Notes: generated by a model from the letters alone, not told the origin. Counted from the first letter of the stretch, positions 24,094-37,054 are shown. The stretch: 64,000 bases of DNA from Portibacter lacus (GCF_021533215.1 NZ_JAJNKA010000005.1:62001-126000), one strand, 5' to 3'. Program-made: numbers and translations.

Positions 24094-26001
24094 ATGGGAA
24101 CAAAAACAATAGTGCATAGCTTATTCACCGATTTTGATATTAATTTATTTAAATCTGGTAAGCATTTTAAGCTTTATGAAAAATTTGGAGCACATGCTCT
24201 AACGCTTAATAAAGAAAAAGGTGTTTACTTTTCTGTGTATGCACCCGCGGCGAGTAAAGTTCAAGTGATAGGAAACTTCAATTCTTGGAATGGAGAGGGT
24301 TATGAATTATATGTAAGGTGGGACAGTTCTGGAATTTGGGAAGGATTCATTCCTGGCGTGAAGGAAGGAGAATTATATAAATTTGAAATTCTATCTACCA
24401 AAGATGATCGAGTTCGTAAAAAAGCCGATCCATACGCTTTCAAGACTGAATTAATGCCACTTTCTGCTTCCATCGTCTGGTCATCAGACTACAAGTGGAA
24501 GGATAAAAAGTGGATGACAAAGGAACGTCCTATTAAAAACGCTCACGATGCACCTAATTCAATCTATGAAGTACACCTAGGTAGTTGGAAAAAAAATAAT
24601 AGTCACTCTCTTTCTTATACTGAGTTGGCGACCGATTTAGTGGATTATGTTAAAGATATGGGATTCACCCATGTGGAGATGATGCCGATTACAGAGCATC
24701 CATACTACCCTTCTTGGGGTTATCTTTCGACATCTTATTTCGCTCCGACGAGTCGCTTTGGCGATCCAGATGAGTTAAAATTCTTAATAGATGCTTTTCA
24801 TAAGGCTGGTATCGGAGTAATCGTAGACTGGGTCCCGGCTCATTTTCCGAATGACGATTTCGCGTTAGCTGATTTTGATGGAACTTGTGTATATGAGCAT
24901 TTCGATCGGCAGAAAGGTTTTCATCCTGACTGGAATAGTTTAATTTTCAATTTTGAAAGGAATGAAGTTCGTTCCTTTTTAATATCAAGTGCATTTTATT
25001 GGTTAGAACATTTTCACCTAGATGGATTGCGAGTAGATGCCGTGTCCTCCATGCTTTATCTAGATTATTCTAGAGAGGAAGGTCAGTGGTCGCCGAACAT
25101 ATTCGGAGGCAATGAATACTTAGCAGCTAAAGATTTTCTTCGCGACTTGAATATTGCCATTTATGGAACATTTCCTAATGTGCAGATGATTGCTGAAGAG
25201 TCTACTGCCTTTCCAGGAGTAACAAAACCTGCTCACCTCGGTGGTCTTGGATTTGGAAAAAAATGGATGATGGGTTGGATGAATGATACTTTGGCTTATT
25301 TCTCCAGAGATCCTATTCATAGAGTATACCATCATAATGAGATAAGCTTTTCATTGACCTATGCATTTACCGAAAACTTTTTGCTTCCGATATCACATGA
25401 TGAGGTCGTACACGGAAAGGGTTCTATCATTTCTAGGATGCCAGGTGATGATTGGCAGCAATTCGCTAATCTAAGATTGCTTTATTCTTATATGTTTACT
25501 CATCCTGGTGACAAATTACTCTTCATGGGTAATGAAATCGGTCAGCGAACAGAATGGAACTTTAACGAATCCATAGAATGGCAGATATTAGGCAACCTAC
25601 ATCATAAAGGAATCCAGACCCTCATTCGCAACCTGAATGCGATATTTACTGGTGAAGAAGCATTACATAAATTAAATTTTTCGGGAGAAGGATTCGAATG
25701 GATCTCTTATGACGATTATAAGAACAGTATTCTTTCTTACATAAGAAAGAGTGAAGATGAGTCTGTAATTGTCATATGTAATTTTACTCCAGTTGTTCAT
25801 ACTGAATATCGAATCGGAGTTCCTGAAAAAGGAAAATATAAAGTCTTAATGAATACCGATGACATCAAATATGGTGGTGCCGGCGGATCTAAGAAACGAG
25901 TATATAATTCTAAAGCTAAAGCGTCTCATGGGAAAGACAATAGTGTCGAGCTTATATTGCCTCCATTAGGTACGTTAATCTTAAAAAAAGAATCAAAATG
26001 A
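24094..26001 (+). CDS. glgB: 1,4-alpha-glucan branching enzyme
   Basis: The 635-residue GH13 enzyme introduces alpha-1,6 branches into glycogen. An N-terminal carbohydrate-binding module (about 40-120, VYAPAASKVQVIGNFNSWNG) precedes the TIM barrel with STSYFAPTSRFG (212-223), nucleophile Asp315 in GLRVDAVSSMLY, acid/base Glu368 in MIAEEST and Asp436 in ISHDEVVHGKGS, then a C-terminal beta domain. The length is near the short form of GlgB. Its last codons overlap glgA by 4 nt (ATGA). Confidence 0.96.
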   Translation: MGTKTIVHSLFTDFDINLFKSGKHFKLYEKFGAHALTLNKEKGVYFSVYAPAASKVQVIGNFNSWNGEGYELYVRWDSSGIWEGFIPGVKEGELYKFEILSTKDDRVRKKADPYAFKTELMPLSASIVWSSDYKWKDKKWMTKERPIKNAHDAPNSIYEVHLGSWKKNNSHSLSYTELATDLVDYVKDMGFTHVEMMPITEHPYYPSWGYLSTSYFAPTSRFGDPDELKFLIDAFHKAGIGVIVDWVPAHFPNDDFALADFDGTCVYEHFDRQKGFHPDWNSLIFNFERNEVRSFLISSAFYWLEHFHLDGLRVDAVSSMLYLDYSREEGQWSPNIFGGNEYLAAKDFLRDLNIAIYGTFPNVQMIAEESTAFPGVTKPAHLGGLGFGKKWMMGWMNDTLAYFSRDPIHRVYHHNEISFSLTYAFTENFLLPISHDEVVHGKGSIISRMPGDDWQQFANLRLLYSYMFTHPGDKLLFMGNEIGQRTEWNFNESIEWQILGNLHHKGIQTLIRNLNAIFTGEEALHKLNFSGEGFEWISYDDYKNSILSYIRKSEDESVIVICNFTPVVHTEYRIGVPEKGKYKVLMNTDDIKYGGAGGSKKRVYNSKAKASHGKDNSVELILPPLGTLILKKESK

Positions 26002-27422
26002 AAGTCTTACACGTAAGCACGGAATGTTATCCTGCAGCAAAAGCTGGAGGAATGGGAGATGTGGTAGGATCTTTACCCAAGTATTTGAAAAAGCATGGTA
26101 TTCAAGCCGATGTCATTATACCGAAATATGCTACGAAGTGGTTTCACGATAAAGCCTATGAAACTGTTTTTTCTGGTTCTTTTTACCAGAGAGGAAGCTA
26201 TATACAGTACGCTATTCAGAAAGTTAGGAGTAGTGGTTTAGATTTCGATCTATACTGTGCAGATATTCCGGGAAAGTTTGACCGCGATTCTATTTATTTA
26301 GGCTGGGATGGTCATGGTTTTCACGACGAAATCGACCGAAATATTGCCTTCCAGAGAGTTGCACTAAGTTGGTTAAATGATGAAAGTACCAACTACGATC
26401 TTGTGCACTGTCATGATCATATGACAGGCTTGATTCCGTTCTTTATGAAATATGGATATGAGTTTAGGAGTCTACAACAAATGCCTAGCTTTTTCACCAT
26501 ACACAATGCCGCTTATTATGGGCAAATGTCATGGAATAATAGGGATGTATTACCTGCTTTCGAAGATCAATATGCCGGTTTGTTAGACTGGGATAATACG
26601 ATTCATTCATTAGCGACCGCAGTAAAATGTGCAACCGTTGTGAACACTGTTTCCCCGAGTTATATGGAGGAAATTATAAATGTAAATAGCAGTTTGGCAT
26701 ATCTATTCCGCGGAGAAAAACATAAATGTATCGGTATTCTTAACGGGATAGACAATGATGAATGGGATACCAAAACAGATCAACTCATCAAGTACAATCG
26801 GAAGAGTTCATGGGTCGATTTCAAACAAAAGAATAAAGAAATATTTGCTGAAGAATACGGATTAGATCCGAATAAGCCTTGGTTTTCGTTCATCGGCAGA
26901 TTCAGCGAACAGAAAGGAGTCGATACTTTAGCTCCAGCTATACAAGCTGTCTATGAACAGAATAACAATGCCTGTTTTGTAATTTTAGGAAGTGGTGACA
27001 AGCGCCTCGAACATCAGATTTCAAGTATCGAGACTCCTGGAATTGTTAAAACATTCATCATGTATAATGAAGCTATTGCTCATCAGATCTATGCGAGCTG
27101 TGATTTCATTTTGATGCCATCTAGATTTGAACCTTGTGGTTTGAATCAAATGTTCGCCATGCGCTATGGAACCATACCTGTTGTCAGGTCTACTGGAGGT
27201 CTAAAAGACACGGTCGTGGAATCCGCAGAAGATGGTACTGGGTTCACCTACCAGGGAAGCAATTCTTATGAATTAGCAGAGGCAATGAAAAGAGCTCAAA
27301 GCACCTATGAAGACCACAATAACTTTAAAAAACTAAGGACGAGATGTACTCGAAAAAATTTCTCTTGGGATAAATCCGCAGAGGAATACGCGAATCAATA
27401 TAAAAAACTTAAGCATGACTGA
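25998..27422 (+). CDS. glgA: glycogen synthase (ADP-glucose type, GT5)
   Basis: The 474-residue enzyme elongates alpha-1,4-glucan from ADP-glucose. It opens with MKVLHVSTECYPAAKAGGMGDVVGSLPK, whose KAGG(M)GDV loop is the family signature, and contains FIGRFSEQKGVD (about 294-305) and MPSRFEPCGLNQMFAMRYG with the conserved Glu of the C-terminal Rossmann domain (about 373-391). It overlaps glgB by 4 nt and glgC by 8 nt, so the three glycogen genes are translationally coupled. Confidence 0.95.
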   Translation: MKVLHVSTECYPAAKAGGMGDVVGSLPKYLKKHGIQADVIIPKYATKWFHDKAYETVFSGSFYQRGSYIQYAIQKVRSSGLDFDLYCADIPGKFDRDSIYLGWDGHGFHDEIDRNIAFQRVALSWLNDESTNYDLVHCHDHMTGLIPFFMKYGYEFRSLQQMPSFFTIHNAAYYGQMSWNNRDVLPAFEDQYAGLLDWDNTIHSLATAVKCATVVNTVSPSYMEEIINVNSSLAYLFRGEKHKCIGILNGIDNDEWDTKTDQLIKYNRKSSWVDFKQKNKEIFAEEYGLDPNKPWFSFIGRFSEQKGVDTLAPAIQAVYEQNNNACFVILGSGDKRLEHQISSIETPGIVKTFIMYNEAIAHQIYASCDFILMPSRFEPCGLNQMFAMRYGTIPVVRSTGGLKDTVVESAEDGTGFTYQGSNSYELAEAMKRAQSTYEDHNNFKKLRTRCTRKNFSWDKSAEEYANQYKKLKHD

Positions 27423-28698
27423 TAAGACAATTTCCGTAATACTGGGTGGTGGAGCAGGTACCCGGTTATTCCCTTTAACAAAAGATAGATCAAAGCCCGC
27501 TGTACCACTTGGAGGTAAGTATCGATTAATCGATATTCCACTTAGCAACTGTTTGAATTCGAATCTGAGAAGAATTTTCGTTCTCACACAATTCAACTCT
27601 GCATCATTGAATAAGCACGTAACGAATGCCTACCATTTCGATGTGTTCTCTAAAGGTTTCGTAGATATTCTAGCTGCTGAACAGACACGAGAAAATGAAA
27701 ATTGGTTCCAAGGTACAGCTGATGCAGTTCGCCAAGTGATGCCAAGAATAAACCATCATGATCACGAACATATTATCATTTTATCTGGTGATCAACTGTA
27801 TCAAATGGACCTAAAATCTATTATTAAACACCATGTTAAGACAGGTGCCGACGTAACAATAGGAACCATCCCTGTAAATTCAGAAGATGCACCTGGATTC
27901 GGTATTATGAAGGTGGATAGTGAAGACAATATAAATGACTTTATCGAAAAACCTTCCGCGGATATCTTAGATCAATGGGTTTCACCTCTAGATGAAAAAT
28001 ACACCAGCGAAGGAAAAAATTATCTCGCTTCTATGGGTATATATGTCTTTACGAAAAAAGCGCTTGCTAATCTTTTTAGCGATATTCCAGGGGCTACGGA
28101 TTTCGGAAAAGAATACATTCCTCATGCAGTAAACAATTCAAAATACAAAGTTGCTAGTTTCCCATTTGGTGGGTATTGGTCAGACATTGGAACCATTAAA
28201 TCATACTATTCAGCAAACTTAATGTTGAATGATTTTCTTCCAGAGTTTAATATGTATAGTAATCAGTCTCCACTATACTCAAGAGCTAGAATGTTAGCAC
28301 CAAGTAAATTTTTCGGTACGATTGTAAATAGTAGTTTAATCTCTGAAGGTTGTATTCTACATGCCAGGGAAATAGACAATTCCGTTATTGGAATTAGATC
28401 TAGAATCGGACCAAGAACGCTTGTTAAAGATTCAATAGTTTTTGGAAATGACTATTACCAAAAACTTCAAGATATTTCAGAAGAATCGCAACAAAAACTT
28501 CTAGGAATTGGCAAAGATTGTGTGATCGATAAGGCCATTATAGAAAAGAATGTTAAAATTGGAAACTTCGTGGAAATCATCGGACACGAGTCTTTAGAAG
28601 ATTCTGAAACGGATACACATTGTATAAGAGACGGGATTGTGGTTGTTAAGAAAGGCGCGGTTATACTAGATAATACCAAGATAGGATATGGAGCATAA
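27415..28698 (+). CDS. glgC: glucose-1-phosphate adenylyltransferase
   Basis: The 427-residue enzyme makes ADP-glucose from ATP and glucose 1-phosphate, the committed step for the two upstream enzymes. The N-terminal nucleotidyltransferase domain shows LGGGAGTRLFPLTKDRSKPAVP (split signature GGGAGTRLFPLT), the site GTADAVRQ and SGDQLYQMD; FGGYWSDIGTIKSYY marks the sugar-phosphate site; a left-handed beta-helix domain follows (about 300-425). It resembles plant/cyanobacterial-type enzymes in size and motifs. It overlaps glgA by 8 nt and ends in a strong terminator. Confidence 0.95.
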   Translation: MTDKTISVILGGGAGTRLFPLTKDRSKPAVPLGGKYRLIDIPLSNCLNSNLRRIFVLTQFNSASLNKHVTNAYHFDVFSKGFVDILAAEQTRENENWFQGTADAVRQVMPRINHHDHEHIIILSGDQLYQMDLKSIIKHHVKTGADVTIGTIPVNSEDAPGFGIMKVDSEDNINDFIEKPSADILDQWVSPLDEKYTSEGKNYLASMGIYVFTKKALANLFSDIPGATDFGKEYIPHAVNNSKYKVASFPFGGYWSDIGTIKSYYSANLMLNDFLPEFNMYSNQSPLYSRARMLAPSKFFGTIVNSSLISEGCILHAREIDNSVIGIRSRIGPRTLVKDSIVFGNDYYQKLQDISEESQQKLLGIGKDCVIDKAIIEKNVKIGNFVEIIGHESLEDSETDTHCIRDGIVVVKKGAVILDNTKIGYGA

Positions 28699-28718: not shown

Positions 28719-28752
28719 AAAAAAGCACCGCGATATCCGTGGTGCTTTTTTT
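28719..28752 (+). terminator. terminator of the glg operon
   Basis: AAAAAAGCACC and GGTGCTTTTTTT form a GC-rich stem around GCGATATCCGT. The A-run before and T-run after allow it to work on both strands, so it can also end the minus-strand gene at 28822-30462. Confidence 0.92.
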
Positions 28753-28821
28753 GTTTTATATCATCTCAATAAGTGATCTCTGATCCTCAGATAAGTAGGG
28801 ACATATATTTTACGGATTGAT

Positions 28822-30462
28822 CTAAGGTCGAATCACCTTTTTACAAATTTCCGAGTAGACTCGAGCCGCTTTTATCAAGTCTTCCTTTGTCTTCTTTATT
28901 CCTCCTTCTTGAATGATTTTCCGCAGATCTTCACAATCACTAAAGTAGTCTGACAATCCCTTTTCCCACAATAAAAAACTTGTACTTTCCAAGGATATTG
29001 GAAATTCTTGACCACTTTTCTGAAAAGCAAATTCAGGCTTTTCATCACTCAAGGCACCAGATGAAGGGTAATATTTGTAAAGTTTCAAGCTTTCTGATTG
29101 ATACACTTCTTCTAAAATTTCAACACTGGCTTCCGTTTTTCCTTTTGCCGAAGGCGAAAACTTCATTTTTGTAAACTTCCTATCTGCAACTTCAAAACTT
29201 GAAACCCAATAATCTGTCAATTTAATCTCATCCAAAACGCCATCTTTATTCACTACGAACTTAACATTCCCTCCCTCTCCGAAAATTAGATCATCAGCTT
29301 CTTTATCCAGCAGCATTTTTCCATAAACTTCCTCGTTTCTATATACGATGGTTGCATTATTCGCATTAGCATCTTCTAAGAGTCTTTCATTTTCCGCTTC
29401 TTGATTAGCGATCGCGCCCGGTGGCAATGCATTCGAAAGATCCCTTTCATAATATATGGTACTCACACCTATGTCTCTCATTCTTTCTAGTGTCCTTTCT
29501 GCCTTTGAAATTCTATTGCTACTTCTGCTATCTTTTCCCATTGCTTTTAAGGATAATTCAGCGTACTCAATAGATGAGGCCATGTCTTCTAAATAATAAT
29601 AAATGGTAGACAGGTTAAGGTTAGCAGCTTTATAAATTCTTTTTTTCTTTTTATCGCCTCTAGGATCTTTAGAAGCCATTTGCTTATAAAATCGAATTGC
29701 AGGTTCTAATTTCTCCTTACGAAATTCTGTGTTCGGGTAATGGCTTCCACTTGAAAAAAGAAGCTTTATCGTTTCATAATGCTTCTCCCATTGATCTTCC
29801 GAAGAGTGCTTCGTGATTAGATATATCTGTTCTCGCGTGGAAGTTTTTCTGAAGTCAAAACTTTGCAACATCGAATTAGAATATGAATAAGCATTTCTTC
29901 TAATTTCTTGGGCAGCATCTCTAGTGATGTCATTGATCAACTTATTCGCGCTTTTCTTAAGTTGAGCCTGGTTTTTATACAATTGAGTTCCTAATTCTCT
30001 GTCATAAACTTCAGACTTACTAGATAATATTCTTCCATCTGGGTCAATAATTTTAGCAGAGCTACTTCCGCTAAATGGCACTGCATAATAGTATTCTTTT
30101 ACAATGACTTCATTTCCACTCTTGTCTTTGGTTTTTGTGGTTTTAGTTTTCATTTCTTCTTTACCGATCGTAAGGTATCCCAAATCTACCACCAAATGCA
30201 AGTGGCCTGCACTGCCACCATAACCATTAACTTTCTTAAACCCTTGCATGGAAAAATCATCCGCAAATCCTTTAGGACTCACTCCTGAAATCTGCAAAAC
30301 CTCACCACCAGCTTCTACGCTAAAAGTCTTGTAATCTAAAGGGACAGCAATCGACGGTAGGCTGACATATTTGATAACGACAGCTTTGTCTTTTAGCTTT
30401 TGAGCATTTATAGCTGCACAGAAAATGAAAATAAATAGGAGAGTTGCATTAATTCTAGACAT
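28822..30462 (-). CDS. secreted protein of unknown function with TPR-like segment, divergent from the CsgG/FlgT-like operon
   Basis: From the ATG at 30462 the product has 546 residues with a signal peptide (MSRINATLLFIFIFCAAINAQ). A second ATG 8 codons upstream is possible but gives a charged N-terminus. A Gly/Ser-rich N-terminal part (about 25-200) is followed by helical repeats with TPR character (AANLNLSTIYYYLEDMASSIEYAELSLKA, about 285-313). I recognise no named family. It faces the exported-protein operon across a 330-bp gap and, like those genes, codes for a periplasmic or surface protein; shared function is inference. Confidence 0.75.
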   Translation of the reverse strand: MSRINATLLFIFIFCAAINAQKLKDKAVVIKYVSLPSIAVPLDYKTFSVEAGGEVLQISGVSPKGFADDFSMQGFKKVNGYGGSAGHLHLVVDLGYLTIGKEEMKTKTTKTKDKSGNEVIVKEYYYAVPFSGSSSAKIIDPDGRILSSKSEVYDRELGTQLYKNQAQLKKSANKLINDITRDAAQEIRRNAYSYSNSMLQSFDFRKTSTREQIYLITKHSSEDQWEKHYETIKLLFSSGSHYPNTEFRKEKLEPAIRFYKQMASKDPRGDKKKKRIYKAANLNLSTIYYYLEDMASSIEYAELSLKAMGKDSRSSNRISKAERTLERMRDIGVSTIYYERDLSNALPPGAIANQEAENERLLEDANANNATIVYRNEEVYGKMLLDKEADDLIFGEGGNVKFVVNKDGVLDEIKLTDYWVSSFEVADRKFTKMKFSPSAKGKTEASVEILEEVYQSESLKLYKYYPSSGALSDEKPEFAFQKSGQEFPISLESTSFLLWEKGLSDYFSDCEDLRKIIQEGGIKKTKEDLIKAARVYSEICKKVIRP

Positions 30463-30652
30463 TGTTGTTTTGATTTTATTGGTCAATTTTGGGAATCAAA
30501 TTTCCAGCAGAATTTGAATTCGAAACATAAATTAAGGAAGGTTTTAATAACAAACTTATAATATATACGATTTTTTGCTTTCATGAAGTTAATAAATAGT
30601 AAATGAACCATTAAATAGAGTTAATGTAAAAGAGAAGCTTAAAAATAATGCA

Positions 30653-30660
30653 TATTTTTG
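30653..30660 (+). promoter_or_regulatory. candidate -7 element of the CsgG/FlgT-like operon
   Basis: TATTTTTG matches TAnnTTTG, 132 nt upstream of the A1 start. It has no obvious -33 TTTG partner. The gap 30463-30792 shows no gene; the extended open frame from 30658 has no signal peptide at its start and would begin inside this element. Confidence 0.45.
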
Positions 30661-30792
30661 GCTCTTTATTTATTTACAATCATTCCGCTATCATTGAATT
30701 GCACACGAAAAACTTCTTCCATCATTGATATGGTCTATTTAAAATTTGAAGAAAGATCCTACCGATCATTGGAAATTATAAACCCCAACAAG

Positions 30793-32376
30793 ATGAAATA
30801 TTATCTTATTATTTTATTGGCCCTGCTGTTATCCGTTAAAAGTTCAGCAGAAGAAAAAAGGAACATTTCTGTACTTATAGAAGAAACGAACTTGAAAAAT
30901 CAGTTCGAAGCTCTTTTTGTGGATCGATTATTTGATTACTTAAATCAGTCCGATAGAATTACATATCAGCGATACCATTATGATTTGAAAAAGAAGTCAG
31001 TCGTATTTAAGTCCGATGGGAAAGAAAATTTCTCTGAGAAAATAATCTTGATCGAACCTGATTTTAAAAATATTCTAACACCAAAAATTGAGATGAAAAA
31101 AGACTCTATCACTGGCAAGACAGTGGGAGCATATATGAATCTCAATTTGGATTTTATTTGTTACTTCAAACAAATAGATCTCGCTTCATCTCAGATAGAG
31201 TTTGCCAAGAAAGTGGCAATGGAGCCTTCTACGTTAAATACGAAGTCTGATGTTTTAGAAATCAATTTCGAAAAATATTTTGTAGGTAATATCCCTAAAG
31301 TAGGTACTAAAGAGTACAAGGCCATTTTAGACAATATTCATGCTGAATACAAATCTCAGATTGAGATGCACTATATCAATAGGATTAATAAAGATTATTC
31401 CATGCTGGGAGACATCGAAAGTGCTATTAATGCACAGACAGATACCTCTCCATTTACCATTGAAGAAATCCCAGATAAGAAAGGGAAAAAAATGAGCAGC
31501 TTTATTATCAAGGCAGGAAAAAATGTAGACTTGTCCGCTTATCAAGGCATCAGTATTTATAAAAAATTAACGATTGCAGGTGAAGAGACAGTAGAACAAA
31601 TAGGAGTAGCTATCGTTACCGATGTAGATCAAACTGAAAGTACAGCTCGTTTTGTTTTTCGAGGTGGCAAGGAACTGTCTGAGGCTTATCAGAATGGTGA
31701 GGAAGTTTTCGCTGTTAGGAATCCTGCATTACTTAATGATATGGTTAGTCTAAGAGAGAAAGAATTCAGGGTTGCAATAGATAATAAATGCTTCTTCTGT
31801 AATTATGAAATACAAAATCAATTATCTGAACTGTACTTCATTAAGCTTCTGGAACGATCTGATGACTTCGTGTCTAAATATTTTATAGAAAAGTTTAAGT
31901 CAGAAGGCTTTATTGACAGCGCAGTAGAAAAAGTTATTGGTAATCAGGAAGGGGTTGATTTCAGTATCAATGCTGATACAAAGAATGTAAAAGTAACGAA
32001 TATAGCAACTGGAGCACTCCAGTCGTTCGCTCTAGCTGATATTAAAAATGACTACCGAATCCTCTTTCTAGAAATGTTCCCACCACAGATGAAATTCCTA
32101 GAAATCGCTAAACAAAAAAAGGATAGGGTAAAAAACATTTACCTCTATTCTCCATATGGCTTACAACAGACGGAATATGTCTACATCTATCAAGTGTATT
32201 ATGAAGAGGTGTTAGGAGAAAAATATAGAAGGACTAAGGAGTTAGGAAATGGGCAAGTTCGAGCGAATTATTCGGATTTAATTGCAGATGTTGCGCTTCA
32301 GAAAAACGAGAAGCAAGTAAGTAAAGCGATTAATGCAGGCACCGAGCTCTTGTTTACATATTCAAAGTTAAAGTAA
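30793..32376 (+). CDS. secreted protein A1 of the CsgG/FlgT-like cluster (paralogue of A2)
   Basis: The start at 30793 gives a clean signal peptide (MKYYLIILLALLLSVKSSAE) and 527 residues; the open frame extends 45 codons upstream without coding character. It aligns over its whole length with the protein at 33274 (for example QMKFLEIAKQKKDRVKNIYLYSPYG versus QMKYLGIAKQKKDRVKRIYVYSPYG, split here only by substitutions). A central segment (about 235-318, IIKAGKNVDLSAYQGISIYKK to FVFRGGKELSEAYQNGEEVF) resembles the C-terminal domain of the next gene. Residues 333-336 are a CxxC motif (CFFC). No known family is recognised; the protein should be periplasmic or outer-surface. Confidence 0.8.
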   Translation: MKYYLIILLALLLSVKSSAEEKRNISVLIEETNLKNQFEALFVDRLFDYLNQSDRITYQRYHYDLKKKSVVFKSDGKENFSEKIILIEPDFKNILTPKIEMKKDSITGKTVGAYMNLNLDFICYFKQIDLASSQIEFAKKVAMEPSTLNTKSDVLEINFEKYFVGNIPKVGTKEYKAILDNIHAEYKSQIEMHYINRINKDYSMLGDIESAINAQTDTSPFTIEEIPDKKGKKMSSFIIKAGKNVDLSAYQGISIYKKLTIAGEETVEQIGVAIVTDVDQTESTARFVFRGGKELSEAYQNGEEVFAVRNPALLNDMVSLREKEFRVAIDNKCFFCNYEIQNQLSELYFIKLLERSDDFVSKYFIEKFKSEGFIDSAVEKVIGNQEGVDFSINADTKNVKVTNIATGALQSFALADIKNDYRILFLEMFPPQMKFLEIAKQKKDRVKNIYLYSPYGLQQTEYVYIYQVYYEEVLGEKYRRTKELGNGQVRANYSDLIADVALQKNEKQVSKAINAGTELLFTYSKLK

Positions 32377-32487
32377 GTTCCTATTTTTAAACATCAAGTT
32401 TTTATTAAGAAATCCCTATTTTTTCTAATACAAATATGAAATAAATTAATAATCGTATTTTCGCGATTTATTGACAATTTTCAGACC

Positions 32488-33267
32488 ATGATTAAACAAC
32501 TTCTTTTACTTGTTACTATACTATGTTATAGCAGCAATATCAATGCTCAGAGTCGAATTGCCATTTATGAAACAGACATCATAGATGCAAAACAGAAACA
32601 ATTAATTACATTATCCATTTTCGAGGGAAGTAGTACTGAAGAAGATATTCAAAAGATACCTGAATATCTTATTTCTAGTTACTCACAAGATGACAGATTT
32701 ATCGTCATTGATAAAAAGAACGAACAACTCATCAAAGATGAAAAGGAAAGACAAAAGTCCGAAGACTTCATAGATGGTTATATTGTTCAACAAGGAAAGT
32801 TAGAAGGAGCAGAATTTCTTCTTAGATCTTTTGTAACCAATAAGGGTAAAGAACTTGCCATTCGAATCTATGATGTAGAAAATAGTCAAATACTATGCGA
32901 ATCATCAACGCCATTTAGAAATGTAAAAAATGCTGTTGAATCACTCGTGAGTGACCTTAACTCAAAGTGCTTCGAATTATATATTGACGTAGTCAGAGTA
33001 GAAGAAGAGAAAAAAGGAAAGGCAAAATCTATTCTAATTCTAGGCGGTAATTCTCAAAATTTGACGAATAGAGCAACTGTTGAAATTTTCACCAAAGTAA
33101 CCGAGGAAATAAACGGTAGGAAAATAGAGCGAAACTTGCCAGTTGGAAAAGGCGTAATCAGTCAAGTTCAGGATGAAAATTTTTCTCTTGTTAAGGTTCT
33201 AGATGGTGGAGAAGAAATCAAAAACAGATTAGATCAAGGCCAGAAATTATTCTGCAAAATAAAGTAA
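32488..33267 (+). CDS. CsgG/FlgT-like exported protein
   Basis: The 259-residue product has a signal peptide (MIKQLLLLVTILCYSSNINAQ). Its N-terminal half (about 22-170) shows the CsgG/TolB-N-like pattern: an assembly domain with SYSQDDRFIVIDKKNEQLIKDEKERQKSEDFIDG, then EGAEFLLRSFV and IRIYDVENSQIL, as in CsgG, LpoB-like and FlgT middle domains. The C-terminal half (about 180-259, SILILGGNSQNLTNRATVEIF to KVLDGGEEIKNRLDQGQKLF) resembles a FlgT C-domain-type small beta-barrel and the centre of A1/A2. No lipobox is present, so unlike CsgG it would be soluble or peripheral. Family placement is by pattern and should be checked by profile search. Confidence 0.68.
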   Translation: MIKQLLLLVTILCYSSNINAQSRIAIYETDIIDAKQKQLITLSIFEGSSTEEDIQKIPEYLISSYSQDDRFIVIDKKNEQLIKDEKERQKSEDFIDGYIVQQGKLEGAEFLLRSFVTNKGKELAIRIYDVENSQILCESSTPFRNVKNAVESLVSDLNSKCFELYIDVVRVEEEKKGKAKSILILGGNSQNLTNRATVEIFTKVTEEINGRKIERNLPVGKGVISQVQDENFSLVKVLDGGEEIKNRLDQGQKLFCKIK

Positions 33268-33273
33268 TACATT

Positions 33274-34836
33274 ATGAGATCATTTTTATTAATAAGTCTA
33301 ATAAGTATTTGTGCTACTTTAGGCTATGCGCAGAAATCTAATGTCGTTTCTGTTATCGTGAATCAAAGTGCTAATAGCCCTTATGAAACTCAATTGGTTA
33401 AGTTAATCATGACCAGTCTAAACGAGTCAAAAACAACAAAATTTCAAGAATACCAATTCAATGAAGCAAATGGAAAAGTTACGTTTCTGGGAACAAAGGA
33501 AGAGTTTTCTACACATGCTTTACTTTTGAATCCTGAATTCAACAATAGCCTTACTCCCGAAATTCAATACACCTCGGATACTACGGGAAAAGTGAAAAGT
33601 GCTTTAATGAATGTCAATTTAGATTTTACGTGTAATTACAAATATTTAGAATTAGGAACAGGAATCGTTGACATTGCTAAGGAAGCAAAAATGGATCCTT
33701 CGAAATTAAGCACCAAACCGGAGGTGATTAATATTGAAATAGGGAAGTACATCAAAGGGAAGTTGCCAAAAAAGGATACAAAGGCATTCAAAGAACTCGA
33801 AGAAAAAATTCATAATGCGTATAAGAGTCAGGTTGCGAAACATTATACAGACAGAGTTAAAAGTGACTACTCTGTGATAAGCGAAATTCGAAGTACTATA
33901 TTTGCAAATTCCGACCCAAAGCCCTTCGAAGTAACAGCAGAAGATGCTGGTAAGAAGAAAATAAGCACTTTCTCTTTTAATGCCGGAAGCAATCAGGATA
34001 TCGCAAAAAGAGAGGCTATTAACGTTTTCAAGAAAGTACAAATAGGAGATTTCGAAGGCTTCGAAAGAATAGGTACTGCACTAACAAAAGAGGTCGGACC
34101 AGATCAAAGTACTGCAAAGTTTTTAATCTCGGGAGGGAAAGGCTTAAAAGAAGCGATCGATGAAAAAGCTACTATTTACGCAGTAAGAAATGAAACACTT
34201 CTAAATAAAGAACTAAAAAATAAAGAAAAGCAATTCAGAGTATCTCTTGAAAAAGAATGTGTATTCTGCAATTTTGATATACAAACACAATTAGCTGACC
34301 TTTATTTCATCAATTTTATAGATAAAAGTGATGAATTTATTTCCAAGCATTTTATTGAAAAATATAAAGGTGAGAAGTTTATAGATGATAAAGTAGAAGA
34401 TGTGCTCGGTCTTAAAGAAGGAATAGATCACATCATTTCTTTAACTGAACAACAAATTCAGGTTACAAGCACCGAAACAGGGCAGGTAGTTGCTAAAGAT
34501 AAAAAAGATATTGACAATGATTATCGCAAGCTATTCTTAGAGGTGTTTACTCCACAAATGAAATACCTAGGTATCGCTAAACAGAAAAAAGATCGAGTAA
34601 AAAGGATTTACGTTTATTCTCCATATGGTTTCATAACCAGAGACCCTATAAATATTCAAAGTGTGAAATATGAAGAAATTTCAGGCAAAAAATTTGAACG
34701 TAAGACCGATTTAGGTACTGCACAGTTTATTAATTCGCATAGTGAATTAATAGGTGAAATCGTTCTTATGAAGAATGAAAAAGATATTAGCAAGGCTATA
34801 TTAAATAATGAAACTTTGCATTTTACTTATAACTAA
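33274..34836 (+). CDS. secreted protein A2 of the CsgG/FlgT-like cluster (paralogue of A1)
   Basis: The 520-residue protein has a signal peptide (MRSFLLISLISICATLGYAQ) and starts 6 nt after the CsgG-like gene. It is a full-length paralogue of A1, with the same order of segments: N-terminal domain, MNVNLDFTCNYKYLEL, shared central beta domain (about 231-313), CVFC at 329-332 and the conserved KKDRVKRIYVYSPYG near 443-457. Its stop codon overlaps the next start (TAATG). The function is unknown; the retained CxxC suggests metal or disulfide chemistry. Confidence 0.8.
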   Translation: MRSFLLISLISICATLGYAQKSNVVSVIVNQSANSPYETQLVKLIMTSLNESKTTKFQEYQFNEANGKVTFLGTKEEFSTHALLLNPEFNNSLTPEIQYTSDTTGKVKSALMNVNLDFTCNYKYLELGTGIVDIAKEAKMDPSKLSTKPEVINIEIGKYIKGKLPKKDTKAFKELEEKIHNAYKSQVAKHYTDRVKSDYSVISEIRSTIFANSDPKPFEVTAEDAGKKKISTFSFNAGSNQDIAKREAINVFKKVQIGDFEGFERIGTALTKEVGPDQSTAKFLISGGKGLKEAIDEKATIYAVRNETLLNKELKNKEKQFRVSLEKECVFCNFDIQTQLADLYFINFIDKSDEFISKHFIEKYKGEKFIDDKVEDVLGLKEGIDHIISLTEQQIQVTSTETGQVVAKDKKDIDNDYRKLFLEVFTPQMKYLGIAKQKKDRVKRIYVYSPYGFITRDPINIQSVKYEEISGKKFERKTDLGTAQFINSHSELIGEIVLMKNEKDISKAILNNETLHFTYN

Positions 34837-35294
34837 TGAATATGAAATACAGCTTAGCTTTTATTACGATTTTGATGGTCAGCTGCGTTACCGTACAGCC
34901 GGTTTCTTTTAATAGAACGGGAGAAGTCACTTGTGTAGAGAAAGGAAGAACAACGATCTCCTTAGTAAGTACCGGTAGGGCTCACAATACTGATGTTGCA
35001 TCTGAGTATGCAGTAAGAAATGCATTCGAAAATTTATTATTCAAAGGTATTCCTGATTCTAACCAAGAAAAACCCTTGGTACCTAACGAAGTAGAAAGTC
35101 TTAAGAAACATGGTAGTTTTTATGATGATCTACTAAATAAAAGAGAGTATCAACGATTTATCATTGAATCAAATATCCAAAACTCAGCAGGTGCTAGAGG
35201 GTCAGCTATCAATGATGTATTTCTGAAAATAGACTTACAAGCTTTAAAATCACATTTAGAACAAAACAGTATAACTAGAAAATTCGGTTTATGA
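34836..35294 (+). CDS. LPP20/FlgP-like lipoprotein
   Basis: The 152-residue lipoprotein (MNMKYSLAFITILMVSC; Cys17 as lipid anchor, start possible at either Met1 or Met3) contains ISLVSTGRAHNTDVASEYAVRNAFENLLFKGIPDS, a pattern of Gly followed by Ala-spaced helix typical of LPP20-type lipoproteins such as FlgP. The phrase ENLLFKGIP recalls an uncharacterised Bacteroidota family. It overlaps A2 by 1 nt and the next gene by 4 nt, so it is tightly coupled. It likely anchors the complex at the outer membrane; that is inference. Confidence 0.65.
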   Translation: MNMKYSLAFITILMVSCVTVQPVSFNRTGEVTCVEKGRTTISLVSTGRAHNTDVASEYAVRNAFENLLFKGIPDSNQEKPLVPNEVESLKKHGSFYDDLLNKREYQRFIIESNIQNSAGARGSAINDVFLKIDLQALKSHLEQNSITRKFGL

Positions 35295-36172
35295 AAAAAT
35301 ATATATTCAGCATTGCGCTAAGTACATTATGCATTCTATTCGCTACTTCTAAAGGAGTAAGTCAGGAAGAAATGGCAAATATACAGCCTACGATAATGGT
35401 TATCCCATTTGCGAAGAAAAATGACAACCTCAGAAGTGCTTATGAAAGAAGTGAAATCGTAAGAATTGCGATCACTAAAGTGAAAGAAGCGTTCGATGAA
35501 AGAGGAGTGAATACCATTGACCTAAGGGCAAAATTAAAGCAATTAAACAATACGGAAGCACTTACTGAAGATCAGGCTAGTGGTTTAAAAGATGAAGTAC
35601 TAAGTATTTCGGGTGCAGATATCTATGTTGAGGTAGAAGCATCAGCTAACAAAGGAAGTAGTGGAAATAGTGTGAATATTATTATGACTGCTTTTGATGC
35701 TTTCTCAGGAGAATCTTTATCTAATAAGACTGCGAATTCTCCTACGATGTATACTGATAATTTCGAAAAATTGGCTGAAAAAGCGGTAGAAAGTGAAATC
35801 GATAACCTACTTAATACTATACAAGAGAAATTTAATGATATCATTAAAAATGGAAGAACGATCGTCGTGAATGTAGGCGTAAGTGATGAAGCTGATTATG
35901 ATTTAGATGCAGATACTCCTGATGGCGATTTATTAAGTGATTATATAGAGTTTGCTATCGAAGATCTAGCTTATAACAACTACTACCATGTTCAAGGAGT
36001 TACTCAAAATAAAATCATTTTTGATATCGTGAAAGTTCCTTTAAAAACTGAAGACGGACGAGCGTATAGAGTTTCTCGTTTCGCATCTTCATTGAGAAAG
36101 AAATTAAAAGAAATCGGTTATGAAAGTGATCGTGTCATTACAGGAAATAATGTTGTTATTACCTTAAAATAG
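35291..36172 (+). CDS. DUF6175-like exported protein
   Basis: The 293-residue protein has a signal peptide (about 1-25) and then QPTIMVIPFAKKNDNLRSAYERSEIVRIAITKVKEAFDERGVNTIDLRAKL, an alpha/beta segment similar to proteins annotated DUF6175 and to the N-domain of CsgG/TolB-like proteins. SGADIYVEVEA marks a second strand-rich part, and NGRTIVVNVGVSDEADYDLD with LRKKLKEIGYE indicates a second alpha/beta repeat (about 190-290). The DUF name is from memory. It overlaps the lipoprotein gene by 4 nt and belongs to the same operon. Confidence 0.65.
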   Translation: MKKYIFSIALSTLCILFATSKGVSQEEMANIQPTIMVIPFAKKNDNLRSAYERSEIVRIAITKVKEAFDERGVNTIDLRAKLKQLNNTEALTEDQASGLKDEVLSISGADIYVEVEASANKGSSGNSVNIIMTAFDAFSGESLSNKTANSPTMYTDNFEKLAEKAVESEIDNLLNTIQEKFNDIIKNGRTIVVNVGVSDEADYDLDADTPDGDLLSDYIEFAIEDLAYNNYYHVQGVTQNKIIFDIVKVPLKTEDGRAYRVSRFASSLRKKLKEIGYESDRVITGNNVVITLK

Positions 36173-36181
36173 AAACAAGAT

Positions 36182-37054
36182 ATGTTCAATAGGATATTAA
36201 CTATTCTGCTTTTAGCCTTAAGCCTTCCTTTTCTAAGCGCTCAAGATTCAAGCCCTGTTCTGGTTTTAAATCTGGAAATAGAAGGAATAGAATGCAATAA
36301 AAGATTTGTTCAGGAAGCTTACAATAAATTTGCCTCTGTATATAAGGATGTAGTCTTTGCAGCTCAGGAAAGTGATCTGCACCAATTAAATATTATTCCT
36401 GAAATAAAAAGCTCTAACCTTTTAGAGGGTATTGATACCTACCACTATGTAGAAATGAATATCACGCTCAATCTGCAAAATCTGAAAACCAGCACTAAAA
36501 AAGAGCTTCATTTAAAAGGTGTCGGTAAATATAAGAATGAATGCGGGGCGATACGGAAGGCATATCTAAATGCATTAACCAGCTCGAAAAGTGATGTTAA
36601 ATCTTTTATAACTGATTTTTATCAATCCTCTTTCAGCAATGATTGTGAATCTTTCGTAGAAGAAGCTAAAGTTTTAAATCAAAAGCAAAGGTATAGAGAA
36701 GCCTTAATTCTCATGTACAAAGCGCCAAAAAATGAGGAATGTAGCACTGAGATAAATCAACTTACTGAGGATATTCATTTAAACATTGCTAAAGCGTCCT
36801 GTGAGAAGGAAATTCACGCTCTCACCCTCATTGTAAATACCAAAGACTTATATCAAATTCGAAAAAACACATACAAACTTCTTCGTATTCCACCTGATGC
36901 ACCTTGCGCTGAGGAAGCAATCAATCTTTCTAAAGAGATCGGCAAATTATTCGAAGTTGAAAATCAAAAACTCCCTAAAGAAGTAAGCGAATTCAATGTA
37001 TTTATCGAAAATCAAAATAGAGATGGCTGGAGAGATCGTTATCTCCGAAGTTAA
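36182..37054 (+). CDS. secreted protein of unknown function, last gene of the CsgG/FlgT-like operon
   Basis: The 290-residue protein has a signal peptide (MFNRILTILLLALSLPFLSAQ), a strand-rich N-terminal half (about 25-130) and a helical, Cys-containing C-terminal half (CESFVEEAKVLNQKQRYREALILMYKAP, about 158-185, and CEKEIHALTLIV) with TPR-like character. Six cysteines suggest disulfides in the periplasm. It starts 9 nt after the DUF6175-like gene and converges on proC, 13 nt away. I do not recognise a family. Confidence 0.75.
   Translation: MFNRILTILLLALSLPFLSAQDSSPVLVLNLEIEGIECNKRFVQEAYNKFASVYKDVVFAAQESDLHQLNIIPEIKSSNLLEGIDTYHYVEMNITLNLQNLKTSTKKELHLKGVGKYKNECGAIRKAYLNALTSSKSDVKSFITDFYQSSFSNDCESFVEEAKVLNQKQRYREALILMYKAPKNEECSTEINQLTEDIHLNIAKASCEKEIHALTLIVNTKDLYQIRKNTYKLLRIPPDAPCAEEAINLSKEIGKLFEVENQKLPKEVSEFNVFIENQNRDGWRDRYLRS

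Follow-up and report, generated by a model that had tools for sequence, protein, structure and literature searches.

A conserved operon of FlgT-like exported proteins in Portibacter lacus, a candidate outer-membrane scaffold in flagellum-free bacteria

Flagellar accessory rings, built from FlgT, FlgP and FlgO, are usually viewed as flagellum-specific add-ons. What, then, might proteins of FlgT type do in a cell without a flagellum? The question is raised by a 64,000-nucleotide stretch of the 6.3 Mb genome of Portibacter lacus (GCF_021533215.1 NZ_JAJNKA010000005.1:62001-126000; “the window” means this whole stretch), in which an initial annotation had pointed out six consecutive plus-strand genes for exported proteins at 30793–37054 and likened them to a flagellum-free FlgO/FlgP/FlgT or CsgG-type envelope complex. 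We call these genes B to G and the divergent gene in front of them A. All six products do begin with a hydrophobic, signal-peptide-like stretch, as does that of A (7/7). The answer we favour, tentatively and at a little less than an even chance, is that the products of the operon form a periplasmic scaffold anchored in the outer membrane, probably ring-shaped, built from FlgT-type parts and serving a non-flagellar role.

A conserved operon around a DUF6175 gene

Among the seven proteins only F (35291–36172, plus strand) has a Pfam match over the cut-off, and it bears out the DUF6175-like label first given to it (PF19672, E 3e-74, 250 bits against a cut-off of 23); in an NCBIfam scan none of the seven reaches the cut-off. 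To our knowledge the DUF6175 family has no described function. In the open reading frames as read from the sequence, B and C lie 111 nt apart, after which the spacing of the last five genes is exactly as tight as annotated, at 9 nt or less or overlapping: C and D are separated by 6 nt, D and E overlap by 1 nt (TAATG), E and F overlap by 4 nt, and F and G are 9 nt apart. No terminator-like site was found within the B–G run. Bacteroidota-type −7 motifs lie between A and B on both strands (30653, 30558), and since the −33 element is absent, promoters in this intergenic region are unproven.

The conserved gene order to which the initial annotation had looked for support is indeed kept across relatives. 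In 76 distinct loci from about 72 genomes, E stands immediately upstream of F in 58 and G (or its counterpart in genomes that we label, by our own reading, Chlorobi-type) immediately downstream in 70; 57 loci have E, F and G as direct neighbours, and the median gap is 9 nt. In 61 of the 76 loci the run also takes in a third element, which may be C alone, C together with D, or an alternative partner of about 450 amino acids that looks unrelated and that we call K. This conservation is far above chance. The closest named relatives of F, 57–67% identical, come from Saprospiraceae or unclassified Bacteroidetes metagenome-assembled genomes and show the same order C-D-E-F-G, which places the present genome probably in or near Saprospiraceae. 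Of 398 genomes of the order, 44 encode a relative of F, as do 36 of 395 in the class, a few of these with weak matches; the two further genomes of the same genus have none. A distinct form is found in 10 of 98 genomes of the class that holds the Chlorobi-type genomes (families f27 and f128), and a single protein takes the place of E and F in ten Chlorobi-type genomes. DUF6175 is encoded twice in two genomes (L134 in G213; L137 and L141 in G801).

A maximum-likelihood tree of F puts the 38 loci that have a C-type partner, without exception, on one side of a branch supported at 100/99, while K-type loci, with few exceptions, cluster on another branch. The host families f1, f2, f5, f47 and f83 are intermingled on this tree, within or across the partner types, suggesting that the operon moves as one piece. 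These data bear on the view that the products are separate actors, for instance ligand-binding or stress proteins, which have common periplasmic folds and merely share a promoter. That C, E or G is missing from some of the 76 loci would fit this view. Set against it are the long-term adjacency with its short gaps, the E-F fusion and the fact that the partner type changed only once on the F tree, and we consider it improbable.

Predicted folds of C, B and D, and of E and F

C (32488–33267, plus strand) was modelled with AlphaFold2 from a 12-row alignment (predicted local distance difference test score, pLDDT, 77.8) and compared with the Protein Data Bank by Foldseek and VIA-align. The two best Foldseek matches are both FlgT (3w1e, 4e-12; 8z5n, the FlgT chain of the LPHT ring, 3e-11), followed by TolB, CsgG, GNA1162, PelC and LpoB. 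VIA-align placed TolB_N on the N-terminal half (Z 12.8) and FlgT across residues 21–259 (Z 12.1), and C is thus predicted to consist of a TolB_N/LpoB/CsgG-fold domain (~20–165) and a FlgT_C-like barrel (~165–259). The root-mean-square deviation from FlgT over both domains is 11 Å, so the domain placement differs or is uncertain. The N-terminal SHS2-like domain of FlgT is not in the C chain, which starts at the middle domain, and the sole SHS2-like candidate in the operon is the separate protein E.

Independently of the model, Pfam searches of the C family (n = 43) matched CsgG in 29 members (PF03783, best 2e-18), LpoB in 28 (best 1.7e-9), FlgT_M in five (best 6e-5) and FlgT_C in three (best 4e-4), the last two being weak. 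The C of the window resembles CsgG by profile and structure only, and its own LpoB match (E 0.025) is below cut-off. The fold first proposed for C is therefore upheld as FlgT/CsgG/LpoB-like by the model, and in relatives also by Pfam, and within the suggested FlgO/FlgP/FlgT resemblance it is the FlgT part that stands; the FlgP part is indirect (see below), and FlgO is marginal, matched in 2/43 C relatives with a best E of 0.017.

LpoB deserves a closer look, given that TolB_N- and LpoB-fold proteins could form a module that binds to and stimulates a peptidoglycan synthase or helps to coordinate outer-membrane and wall growth with no ring at all. The frequent Pfam matches and the presence of LpoB and TolB among the best structural matches of C speak for such a role, but in Foldseek FlgT outranks LpoB by eight orders of magnitude, LpoB has no C-terminal barrel, and LpoB is a lipoprotein while no lipobox was found in C; nor was a peptidoglycan synthase gene noted as conserved in the operon neighbourhoods. 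We therefore regard this module as unlikely.

The CsgG-type secretion pore that the initial annotation had raised fares worse. The segment of C aligned with the first transmembrane hairpin of CsgG is absent, and there is no second hairpin either, so that C is unlikely to form a CsgG-like pore. In a wider sense, the operon could still be an export portal of CsgG or PelC type that secretes a fibre or a polysaccharide, given that C and F have the CsgG/PelC fold in common and that PelC is a ring-forming lipoprotein. Yet C has neither hairpin and lacks the lipid anchor, the operon has no conserved companion gene for a curli subunit, a polysaccharide synthase or a secreted substrate, and the real curli genes sit elsewhere in the same genome, all of which makes a portal highly unlikely. 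The statement that curli genes are lacking thus holds within the window and fails genome-wide: true csgE, csgF and csgG lie unlinked to it at L001:907-3448 (contig C32:513464-517102 of the same genome). This unlinked CsgG carries a C-terminal half resembling an outer-membrane beta-barrel (OMP_b-brl).

B (30793–32376) and D (33274–34836), both on the plus strand, are the two large paralogues noticed at the outset and are 42% identical. A search of the whole genome with the C profile matched this operon only, C once and B and D in two stretches each, and hhalign of C against the D family gave a probability of 99.7% over the C-terminal half and, as a second match, 98.4% over the N-terminal half. 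Since the C profile matches each of them twice, B and D are tandem doubles of the C layout, each with two FlgT-like modules (TolB_N-like plus barrel). B, the second D-like gene in front, is unique to the window among the 76 loci.

For E (34836–35294, plus strand) and F, the natural E-F fusion at L155 offered a common model (pLDDT 88). FlgT is again first (8z5n, 7e-8, 397 alignment columns) and second (3e-7) in Foldseek, then CsgG and PelC. With VIA-align the F part (154–305) matches PelC (Z 11.7) and the middle domain of FlgT (Z 9.2), and CsgG is also matched; F is thus predicted to hold a TolB_N/PelC/CsgG-fold domain, next to a C-terminal alpha/beta domain. No internal signal peptide is present in nine aligned fusion rows. 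The VIA alignment lies mainly on the F part, and the E part shows a beta-alpha-(insert)-beta-beta-alpha order as in FlgP and LPP20. FlgP, Lpp20 and FlgT share an SHS2-like fold, in which ring formation accompanies an insertion after the first helix (PMC12222027). A FlgP-like (SHS2-like) fold of E is probable from the model; it is not proven, because there is no LPP20 Pfam match, the insert is predicted to be helical and the link through a side family is weak. The members of this side family, which stand next to G in some loci, are weakly LPP20/FlgT_N-like and align with E. The LPP20/FlgP-like lipoprotein of the initial annotation hence stands as a predicted lipoprotein, with a lipobox in E, and not as an LPP20 match.

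Several searches surround this assignment. When PDB sequences were searched with profiles of G, K, E and F, only chance matches came up; FlgP, FlgO and LPP20 entries are absent among the structure matches listed, which is not evidence against them; and an LPP20 search of the own genome gave no match, as was also the case in control genomes. The side-family proteins are exported, have their weak LPP20/FlgT_N-like domain at the N-terminus, and lie 3′ of E-F-G at L071, L073, L076, L142 and L144, loci in which neither a C nor a K partner was seen. A 456-amino-acid exported protein outside the operon (L079:7122-8492) has FlgT_N (E 0.0014) and LPP20 (E 0.024) similarity, and FlgT_N/LPP20-type domains therefore occur more widely in relatives.

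A putative scaffold at the outer membrane

Where would such proteins be located? E has the lipobox LMVSC with its cysteine at C17, and a lipobox-like motif occurs in 45 of 79 members of its family (window E and 44/78 others). Acidic residues after the lipidated cysteine are the surface-export signal in this phylum; E lacks such a signal, and in none of the 45 do two or more of them stand just after the cysteine, so that export to the surface is not indicated. Directly 3′ of G, six related loci carry a gene for a DUF3575-type outer-membrane barrel (L054, L055, L056, L057, L058 and L062). Taken together, the lipobox and this neighbour suggest an outer-membrane location, presumably on its periplasmic face.

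G (36182–37054, plus strand) has a C-terminal half that looks like a helical repeat and contains cysteines 155, 187 and 207, which hardly vary among 13 diverse relatives; weak TPR/ARM-type Pfam matches occur in the relatives. In Chlorobi-type genomes the companion protein ends in a region homologous to the N-terminal half of G (hhalign 95.9%) and begins with a Pfam LPP20 domain fused to this G-type domain. As for K, an apparent K-E fusion (L067:5515-7305, a 596-amino-acid frame) has a signal-peptide-like stretch at the junction and is probably a case of merged reading frames. K-type or related proteins at L072:8968-10917, L016:11623-13323 and L018:2986-4710 read as having a C-terminal extension like an outer-membrane barrel, with no Pfam match over the cut-off.

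The flagellum-free character proposed for the locus is supported by the lack of the P-ring protein FlgI: neither the own genome nor 71 of the 72 carriers encode it, the lone exception being G109 (L016/L162). The operon is therefore unlikely to serve a flagellum and would serve something else. One candidate is the type IX secretion system (T9SS) or gliding machine of the same cells, for which it might provide an outer-membrane collar. SprA is encoded in 71/72 carriers; this co-occurrence was discarded as evidence, because SprA is present anyway in 97% of the class sample (382 of 395 genomes) and is thus uninformative. Moreover, carrier G376 gave no SprA match, and an operon present in only ~9–11% of genomes cannot be required for T9SS in general. 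We consider such an accessory quite improbable.

In the scaffold that we favour, the domain set of FlgT (SHS2-like, TolB_N-like and C-terminal barrel) would be spread over E, F and C/B/D. E would hold the structure, through its lipid, to the inner leaflet of the outer membrane and F would dock on E; that E and F touch is indicated by their being one polypeptide in Chlorobi-type relatives, and a contact between E and C is suggested by a Rosetta-stone argument, because FlgT joins the SHS2-like, TolB_N-like and barrel domains. C, together with the doubled B and D, would supply FlgT-like middle and C-terminal modules, G would join the other parts as a disulfide-bearing helical-repeat protein, and together they may form a ring or collar, either to brace the outer membrane against the peptidoglycan or to encircle another envelope-spanning device. 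Ring-shaped oligomers at the outer membrane are formed by FlgT, FlgP, PelC and CsgG alike, and by analogy with them a periplasmic, outer-membrane-anchored ring or collar seems the most likely form. For FlgP and FlgT, oligomerisation at the outer membrane has been described (PMC12222027).

A number of points weigh against this scaffold. Assembly into a single complex is deduced from linkage and predicted fold, and TolB_N/CsgG/LpoB-type domains are common periplasmic folds found also in monomeric proteins such as TolB. Whole-chain TM-scores to FlgT are low (0.2–0.36) for both the C and the E-F fusion models, and hence the relative placement of domains compared with FlgT is not established. First-round hhalign matches of C with F and with G (both 96%) were partly due to the signal peptide, and fell to a modest 83% and 56%, respectively, once this was trimmed. 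K gave no assignable fold in profile searches, Pfam LPP20 is matched in none of 55 E-family members at a threshold of E 0.05, and the insert of E after the first helix is predicted to be helical, as opposed to the ring-forming beta-hairpin of FlgP (PMC12222027).

Gene A (28822–30486, minus strand; the likelier ATG lies eight codons in, at ~30462) encodes a divergent secreted protein. Its homologue (~22% identity over 587 columns) is found in the same divergent position at one other locus only (L013), and A is at most loosely associated with the operon. Directly before A lie three overlapping genes that read as glycogen branching enzyme-, glycogen synthase- and glucose-1-phosphate adenylyltransferase-like (24094–28698), and a GC-rich hairpin with a T run (~28725–28755) stands between these and A.

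Comparison with known systems

In the open-access papers searched we found no published description of this operon, nothing on DUF6175, on LPP20 with CsgG in Bacteroidetes or on LPP20 lipoproteins in Bacteroides, and no relevant paper on FlgT or FlgP outside flagella. A conserved operon with FlgT-type folds in flagellum-free bacteria offers a testable case of flagellar accessory rings standing alone and bears on the origin of flagellar outer-membrane rings. If the scaffold is real, many non-swimming Bacteroidota would hold a flagellum-style envelope scaffold doing another job. A bolder version, possible but in our view rather unlikely, is an undescribed ring-forming outer-membrane machine of Bacteroidota and Chlorobi, made of FlgT/FlgP-type parts around a non-flagellar axis or as a lone envelope brace, with interchangeable partners C and K and possibly near the ancestral stock of flagellar H-rings.

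Among known proteins, the Vibrio H-ring protein FlgT (3w1e, 8z5n) shares with C the order of a middle TolB_N-like domain followed by a C-terminal barrel, and its N-terminal (SHS2-like) and middle domains follow the order seen in the E-F fusion; like these products it is exported, and it is located at the outer-membrane rings. It differs in that the operon splits the domains over several genes, with C lacking the N domain, in a genome without FlgI and at a sequence identity of only ~10%. FlgP/LPP20 (IPR024952; Campylobacter basal disk) resembles E as a small outer-membrane-type lipoprotein of the same predicted topology, with an insertion at the position seen in FlgP, but Pfam LPP20 does not match the E family and the insertion is predicted to be helical. 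The curli channel CsgG has the same core alpha/beta domain as C, and many C relatives match Pfam CsgG, whereas C has no transmembrane hairpins or lipid anchor and the operon has no curli partners. LpoB, TolB_N, PelC and GNA1162 are outer-membrane-associated periplasmic proteins whose core fold recurs in C and in the middle of F; they are single-domain or carry other partner domains, without DUF6175, E or G beside them. Finally, F is a clear member of DUF6175, and the operon provides this family with a concrete genomic context and a set of partners.

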